Below, piece by piece: positions 37,362 to 51,931 of a stretch of DNA of 64,000 nucleotides. Position 1 is the first letter of the stretch. Every line of letters starts with the position of its first letter. Both the position numbers and the translations under genes were made by a program. Source of the stretch: Gemmatimonadota bacterium (GTDB lineage: Bacteria > Gemmatimonadota > Gemmatimonadetes > Gemmatimonadales > Gemmatimonadaceae); the NCBI GenBank assembly GCA_021299375.1, contig JAJTGR010000036.1, forward strand, positions 1 through 64,000, in the 5' to 3' direction. The notes beneath the pieces are model-generated. The model did not search any database, had not been told where the DNA came from, and saw only the letters and a program-made list of their open reading frames with translations.

Positions 37362-37377
37362 CCGAATATATACCGAA
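37362..37377 (-). promoter_or_regulatory. Putative SOS-type operator of dnaE2
   Basis: On the minus strand the site reads TTCGGTATATATTCGG, a direct repeat TTCGG-N6-TTCGG. It lies 8-23 bases upstream of the dnaE2 ATG, so the repressor would cover the start region of the transcript. The same repeat with identical spacing precedes imuA and the radical SAM gene. The 11-bp period is like the GTTC-N7-GTTC LexA box of Alphaproteobacteria. No lexA gene is in the window. Confidence 0.75.
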
Positions 37378-37474
37378 GAAAAGAGCGCTGGGCATCCCCC
37401 ACCCCCCATCCACCGGATCCCGAGCCTCGGGTTATCCTTGCAGTCCCCCACCGGATACCCACTCGCGCGTTTCG

Positions 37475-37903
37475 ATGCTCAACCCGTACACGCAACAGAT
37501 CGACGAGGCCCTGCAGGCCGCCGATCGCATGACCGCCGACGAACTGGATCGCTTGCCGTATGGCATGATCCAGCTCGATGCCACCGGGCGGATTCTCAAC
37601 TACAACGCGCTGGAGTCGAAGCTCGCGTCGCTGCGCAAGGAGGACGCGATCGGCAAGCAGTTCTTCACCGAGATCGCGCCGTGCACGCGGGTGCAGGAGT
37701 TCTACGGGCGCTTCAAGGAAGGGGTGATCCGGGAGTCGCTCGACACCAGCTTCCATTTCCATTTTGCGTTCAAGCAGCATCCCCGGGACGTCACGGTGCG
37801 GCTGCTCTACTCCAGGCGCACGCGCACGGTGTGGGTGCTGATCTCCGACCACGAGGGGAAGCCCCTGGCGGGGCAGGACACCGGGGACGCCCCGACGGGC
37901 TGA
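37475..37903 (+). CDS. pyp: Photoactive yellow protein homologue (PAS fold)
   Basis: A 142-residue PAS protein that aligns with Halorhodospira PYP without gaps through the core, offset by one residue. The chromophore cysteine is Cys70 in IAPCTRVQEFYG. The phenolate-binding Tyr43 and Glu47 are present in NYNALES. The block FYGRFKEGV is almost identical to the classical protein. Thr50 and Arg52 of the classical protein are replaced by Ala and Leu, which should shift colour or kinetics. The C-terminus extends about 15 residues (GKPLAGQDTGDAPTG). PYP binds p-coumarate and senses blue light; no tyrosine ammonia-lyase is in this window. The gene is divergent from dnaE2 across 120 bp and ends six bases from the convergent exchanger fusion. 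Confidence 0.87.
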   Translation: MLNPYTQQIDEALQAADRMTADELDRLPYGMIQLDATGRILNYNALESKLASLRKEDAIGKQFFTEIAPCTRVQEFYGRFKEGVIRESLDTSFHFHFAFKQHPRDVTVRLLYSRRTRTVWVLISDHEGKPLAGQDTGDAPTG

Positions 37904-37909
37904 CCGGCG

Positions 37910-50842: not shown

Positions 50843-50859
50843 TGGTCATCAGGTGACGC

Positions 50860-51903
50860 TCAAAACAGGGCGAGCTGTCTGACAATCGATGGTTTCTTCA
50901 TTTCTTCCTGTATGGCTTCTGTTCTATCTTTGGCGTCGTGAGTGGAATTCCGATACCCCCGGATGTGCAGCCCGTGGCGCCGAGCGAGCCGTTCCATGAC
51001 CTGCTGCAATCCCGCCCGGTAGCGATCGCCGACATACGCGCTGCGCCGGTAGGTGGACTCGTACCGGTCGGCCAACGCCGGAAACGCCTCCCGGATAACG
51101 GGCAGGTAGCGCCGCCGGGACGCCGCCCGCAGCCGCAGGGCGCACGCGCCCAGGCTGGTGGCGCCGCTGGCCGCCACCTGCGCCACCAGATCGGCCAGCA
51201 CGGCCGGCTCGTCGGTGATGCCGGGGAGTACGGGCATGCAGTTCACGCTGACCGCGATGCCGGCGTCGGCGAGCCGCCGGACGGCCCGTAGCCGCGCAGT
51301 CGGGGTGGGCGCCCGCGGCTCGAGACGGCGGGCCAGCTCCCGGTCGACCGTGATGAGCGAGACGTGCACCGCCACCGTGTTGCGGTCGGCCAGCCGCTGC
51401 AGCAGGGGAATGTCGCGCGTCACCAGCGGGCTCTTGGTGATGAGTACCACCGACAGCCCGCGCACCTCGCCGAGCGCCTCCAGGATCTCCCGCGTGACCC
51501 GAAACCGCCGCTCGGCGGGTTGGTAGGGATCGGTGGACGACCCGATCACCAGAGAGTCGCCGGCCCGGGGCGCCCGCGAGGAACGCAATGCGTCCCGCAC
51601 GCGCGCCCCCGCCCGCTGCTTCACCAGCACGCGCCGCTCGCACGCCAGCCATGGCGGCATGGCGTCGGCCACCTGCCGCCCCACCTCTCCCGCCCGCTCG
51701 ATGGCGTAGCGGTGCGTGTCCCGGGCGTAGCAGTAGGCACAGCCGAAGGCGCAGCCGACATAGGGATTGATGGACCAGAAGCCCAGCCCCGTGGCCCCGG
51801 GCGGGTTGAACAGCCCGCCACCCGGTGCGACGTGATACTGCAGGTCGGCCTGCACAGTCAGCAGCCGGAGCGGCGCCGGAAAAACGGGCAGGGCAAGCAT
51901 CAT
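50860..51903 (-). CDS. Radical SAM protein of the SPL/Rv2578c-like group
   Basis: A 347-residue enzyme. The [4Fe-4S] cysteines are C51, C55 and C58 in GCAFGCAYCYAR. Other group signatures are GFWSINPYVG before it, the VIGSSTDPYQP strand, ITKSP and VSVNCMPVLPG. Such proteins resemble spore photoproduct lyase, which repairs UV damage, but the substrate of this group is not known. The protein ends RQLALF, matching the beta-clamp-binding consensus QL(S/D)LF. The ATG at 51903 is chosen because the damage-type operator lies 13-28 bases before it; an earlier in-frame ATG at 51990 would place that operator inside the coding sequence. Next to it is imuA. Confidence 0.9.
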   Translation of the reverse strand: MMLALPVFPAPLRLLTVQADLQYHVAPGGGLFNPPGATGLGFWSINPYVGCAFGCAYCYARDTHRYAIERAGEVGRQVADAMPPWLACERRVLVKQRAGARVRDALRSSRAPRAGDSLVIGSSTDPYQPAERRFRVTREILEALGEVRGLSVVLITKSPLVTRDIPLLQRLADRNTVAVHVSLITVDRELARRLEPRAPTPTARLRAVRRLADAGIAVSVNCMPVLPGITDEPAVLADLVAQVAASGATSLGACALRLRAASRRRYLPVIREAFPALADRYESTYRRSAYVGDRYRAGLQQVMERLARRHGLHIRGYRNSTHDAKDRTEAIQEEMKKPSIVRQLALF

Positions 51904-51915
51904 GCGCTGATCGTA

Positions 51916-51931
51916 CCGAACAAACGCCGAA
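51916..51931 (-). promoter_or_regulatory. Putative SOS-type operator of the radical SAM gene
   Basis: On the minus strand the site reads TTCGGCGTTTGTTCGG, the third example of TTCGG-N6-TTCGG. It ends 13 bases before the ATG at 51903. All three copies lie on the minus strand close before a start codon of a gene linked to DNA damage. Confidence 0.75.

Follow-up and report, generated by a model that had tools for sequence, protein, structure and literature searches.

A TTCGG-N6-TTCGG direct repeat as the predicted LexA operator of Gemmatimonadota

Genes and repeats in the window

The DNA analysed here is a window of 64 kb from a Gemmatimonadota genome, in which an exact scan of both strands for the direct repeat TTCGG-N6-TTCGG returned three matches, all on the minus strand, lying directly before a dnaE2 gene, an imuA-like gene, and a gene for a radical SAM protein (Table 1). 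Positions and strand agree with those in the first-pass annotation that had drawn attention to the repeats, and family-profile matches bear out the three gene identities proposed there. Its distance from box to start codon (8 to 28 nt) has to be corrected to 7 nt for dnaE2, 8 nt for imuA, and 12 nt for the radical SAM gene. These short distances suggest that all three genes have leaderless or nearly leaderless transcripts. The dnaE2 product contains PHP, DNA_pol3_alpha, and finger domains. For the imuB-like gene, the coordinates are those of the longest open reading frame, and its true start is uncertain.

Table 1. Genes and predicted operators in the window
Feature	Position	Strand	Evidence
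dnaE2, error-prone DNA polymerase III alpha homologue	33563..37354	-	NF004225, 1237 bits (cut-off 939)
LexA-type operator (predicted), TTCGGTATATATTCGG	37362..37377	-	7 nt before dnaE2 (ATG 37354)
imuB-like gene, divergent Y-family polymerase relative	47946..50066	-	PF00817 IMS, E=2.6e-5; imuA-imuB-dnaE2 synteny in relatives
imuA-like gene, RecA-fold mutasome accessory	49624..50778	-	NF033429, E=2.8e-14, under curated cut-off; PF00154
LexA-type operator (predicted), TTCGGTCTTTCTTCGG	50787..50802	-	8 nt before imuA (ATG 50778)
Rv2578c/PA0069-type radical SAM protein gene	50860..51903	-	NF038135, E=1.1e-61, under curated cut-off; PF04055
LexA-type operator (predicted), TTCGGCGTTTGTTCGG	51916..51931	-	12 nt before radical SAM gene (ATG 51903)

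Dinucleotide shuffles of the window place the expected number of copies at 0.12, close to the figure of about 0.1 estimated at first, and none of 100 shuffles reached three. When spacers of 0 to 24 nt were compared, N6 alone recurred three times and every other length gave 0 to 2 matches. All three sites have T at position 5 of the spacer. A scan of the window allowing two mismatches gave 75 matches against 63.5 in shuffles, no significant excess, and informative boxes are therefore only those that are exact or nearly so.

Two of the boxes also face genes on the plus strand. Divergent from dnaE2, at 37475-37903, is a putative gene for a PAS protein like photoactive yellow protein; apparently the same gene adjoins a box in two relatives. 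Divergent from the radical SAM gene, at 52026-52319, is a gene resembling pterin-4a-carbinolamine dehydratase, and similar sequence lies next to a box at two loci in relatives from the genus.

Occurrence in the source genome and across the phylum

The first-pass annotation had proposed a scan of the whole genome and a look before lexA and recA and in related genomes. In the source assembly (4.48 Mb, 70% GC), there are 12 exact copies, against 4 of a reversed-pattern control, and 2 of them stand in tandem directly upstream of the single lexA gene. Requiring T at spacer position 5 leaves 7 of the 12: the 2 at lexA, those before dnaE2, imuA, and the radical SAM gene, one before an unassigned open reading frame, and one that falls within the coding sequence of fpg/mutM and was set aside. 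The five copies without this T were treated as chance. The box before recA is degenerate, with one mismatch (TTCGT-AGTTTA-TTCGG), and is kept in relatives; the variant TTCGTA-N-TTT-N-TTCGG recurs within the source genome's own family. A genome scan with one mismatch yielded 351 matches against 165 for the reversed control, too noisy to be used on its own.

The open reading frame just mentioned encodes 203 amino acids and starts 29 nt downstream of an exact box (L001:1501-2157). It has no family match, and it or a relative is encoded in 3 of 21 genomes, the source included.

Among the named LexA relatives in the sequence collection, nearly all go under Gemmatimonas, Gemmatimonadaceae, Gemmatimonadales, Gemmatimonadetes, or Gemmatimonadota. 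Every one of 80 named Gemmatimonadota loci has an exact box no more than 250 bp before lexA, and 71 have two. This amounts to 151 boxes in 19.8 kb of lexA-upstream sequence compared with none, on either strand, in the remaining 211.7 kb of the same loci. N6 is the only spacer length found at all 80 lexA loci, with N10 as the runner-up in 28. In a separate sample of the phylum, the box precedes 78 of 79 lexA genes of the main class; no box lies upstream of the best-scoring lexA copy of one genome with a second lexA match. With up to one mismatch, it also precedes recA in 29 of 30 genomes and in 11 of 14 further main-class genomes, that is, in 40 of 44, and is absent from recA in the other 4 as well as from all 4 recA genes read in a second class of the phylum.

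The imuA-imuB-dnaE2 operons and radical SAM genes of relatives usually start with a box, which was found upstream of imuA, the imu operon, or the radical SAM gene in most of 20 regions read. The T at spacer position 5 recurs in relatives in 70 of 78 first and 57 of 71 second lexA boxes, in 37 of 39 boxes at imu, dnaE2, or radical SAM genes, and in 31 of 34 at recA. One relative has three TTCGG half-sites in 11-bp steps before lexA. Viral contigs scanned for the full promoter pattern gave a single match, with no open reading frame of at least 80 amino acids there, which we took as chance.

Promoter geometry, the LexA recognition helix, and other readings of the repeat

In the lexA promoter, a −35 element, TTGCRC, and a −10 element, TANNNT, are separated by a 17-bp spacer that the first box occupies; TTG precedes the box in 76 of 78 cases, and TANNNT follows it in 74 of 78. 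Further downstream, at a variable 23 to 37 bp from the first, comes the second box, which has no promoter hexamers (TANNNT follows in 1 of 71). The radical SAM box of the window has the same layout as the first lexA box, between TTGCGA and TACGAT at 17-bp spacing, and the imuA box is directly followed by TATTCA, a possible −10 element. This geometry is clear at lexA and not clear at dnaE2 of the source genome. Placement between −35 and −10 is as expected of a repressor.

The LexA of the source genome is canonical: it matches TIGR00498 with 206 bits, contains the DNA-binding domain PF01726 and the S24 peptidase domain PF00717, and conserves the Ala-Gly site, Ser122, and Lys160. In the second class of the phylum, all five lexA genes whose upstream regions were read are preceded by TTCGC-N6-TTCGC instead, which in one genome of that class also precedes umuD. 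The recognition helix differs as well, reading SLATVHEH with Glu44 in the main class and S[PT]ATVHKH with Lys44 in the second; in an alignment with the LexA sequence printed for 8s7g, residue 44 falls on the second Glu of its EEH motif. Residue and box go together without exception, in 72 Glu/TTCGG and 5 Lys/TTCGC cases, and the association may reflect a single evolutionary event. That this one residue sets the fifth base of the half-site, Glu44 giving TTCGG and Lys44 TTCGC, is a tentative reading to which we give slightly less than an even chance. If it were true, the operator of a regulon would have been rewritten along with LexA, without a paralogue replacing lexA, and the two combinations would offer a natural pair for testing how motif changes arise.

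Two side observations belong here. Some promoters contain three half-sites in 11-bp steps, as in TTCGCTTTTTATTCGCTTTATGTTCG before umuD (L404:1501-1526). Several families of the phylum possess an additional LexA whose recognition helix, KSTKTVS, differs from that of the first; upstream of these paralogues there is neither a TTCGG nor a TTCGC box, nor any shared dyad.

The repeat could instead be bound by a different damage-response regulator, such as a PafBC-like activator or an XRE regulator, which would then control lexA too. Regulators of repair genes that are independent of LexA are known in other phyla (DdiA, Myxococcus; PMC12288472). However, the box is placed as for a repressor, in the −35/−10 spacer with a second copy downstream. 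It also tracks canonical lexA, in whose own promoter it sits, and not the LexA paralogues of the same families, and a change in its fifth base is accompanied by a residue change in the recognition helix of LexA. We therefore consider another regulator improbable. Still less probable is a role as a core promoter element common to stress genes and recognized by an alternative sigma factor. The box does abut the promoter hexamers at lexA, but ordinary TTGCRC and TANNNT elements at 17-bp spacing already flank it, so that the promoter is complete without the box, and the second lexA box, at its variable distance, lacks hexamers altogether. Coincidental matches of a frequent word in a genome so rich in GC, for which the 184 occurrences of bare TTCGG in the window and the six exact genome copies lacking T5 or lying inside fpg/mutM might speak, have a negligible probability given 0.12 expected copies in the window, 80 of 80 lexA loci with a box, and none in 212 kb of flanks, and are excluded by the conservation upstream of lexA.

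The predicted regulon and its relation to known LexA boxes

The direct repeat TTCGG-N4-T-N-TTCGG, with its 11-bp period, is thus very probably the operator of the canonical LexA repressor of Gemmatimonadota, and the comparison across lexA, recA, imu, and radical SAM genes strongly supports the first suggestion that it is the SOS operator of the lineage. We infer LexA binding, repression, induction by damage, and the reading of a direct repeat by a dimer from sequence comparison. A LexA dimer would lie over the −35/−10 spacer, and at lexA also over the second, downstream copy, and would bar RNA polymerase from the promoters of lexA, recA, imuA-imuB, dnaE2, and the radical SAM gene. Upon DNA damage, RecA filaments would trigger self-cleavage of LexA at Ala87-Gly88, and the operator-bearing genes would be derepressed. 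With a canonical LexA and boxes before lexA, recA, and translesion-synthesis genes (imuA, dnaE2), the predicted regulon is an ordinary SOS regulon in all but its LexA operator, which appears to be of a new type.

Within the genus, the box also precedes a UDG-linked radical SAM gene (TIGR03916), DinB-family genes (PF05163; two loci), the natural transformation gene dprA and a SocA-like antitoxin gene (a single genome each), TetR-type regulator genes (two loci), an accD-like carboxyltransferase gene, and a gene for a type III glutamine synthetase (one locus, and by eye a second). Each of these targets was seen in one to three genomes, and all except the UDG-linked radical SAM gene are candidates. 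The latter's product resembles the COG1573-COG4277 pair reported to be SOS-regulated elsewhere (PMC8565304).

In the literature searched, where coverage was limited, we found no description of a LexA motif for Gemmatimonadota, and LexA and Gemmatimonas were named together only in a community survey; TTCGG-N6-TTCGG as a LexA operator thus appears to be new for the phylum. LexA is a textbook case of a repressor with a binding site that has diverged widely between lineages, and a paper from 2021 counted 17 distinct LexA motifs (PMC8565304). The predicted box would add a phylum to those with known motifs and provide a rule for spotting SOS genes in the phylum's numerous uncultured bacteria.

Among known operators of SOS genes, the GAAC-N4-GTTC type of Gram-positive bacteria and CTGT-N8-ACAG of E. 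coli are palindromic. These are inverted repeats, whereas the Gemmatimonadota box is a direct repeat: both palindromic motifs are absent from the source genome's own lexA promoter, and no conserved inverted partner of the box appears in the aligned lexA promoters. In Alphaproteobacteria, a canonical LexA controls lexA, recA, and imuA-imuB-dnaE2. Its box, GTTC-N7-GTTC, is a direct repeat (PMC8565304), and the Gemmatimonadota box is like it in repeat type, 11-bp period, TTC core, and similar targets. The half-site differs, however, TTCGG being extended 3' of TTC with the preceding G dispensable, and GTTC-N7-GTTC occurs neither at any of the three window sites nor in the genome's own lexA promoter. 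The analogy with Alphaproteobacteria drawn in the first-pass annotation therefore stands for the 11-bp period and fails for the half-site sequence. The LexA motif of Balneolaeota, TTACACATATTTTWTACATA, was described as a new direct-repeat operator, with a regulon that includes a radical SAM protein (PMC7739468). It shares with the Gemmatimonadota box the direct-repeat form and a radical SAM target, while the half-sites of the two are unrelated.
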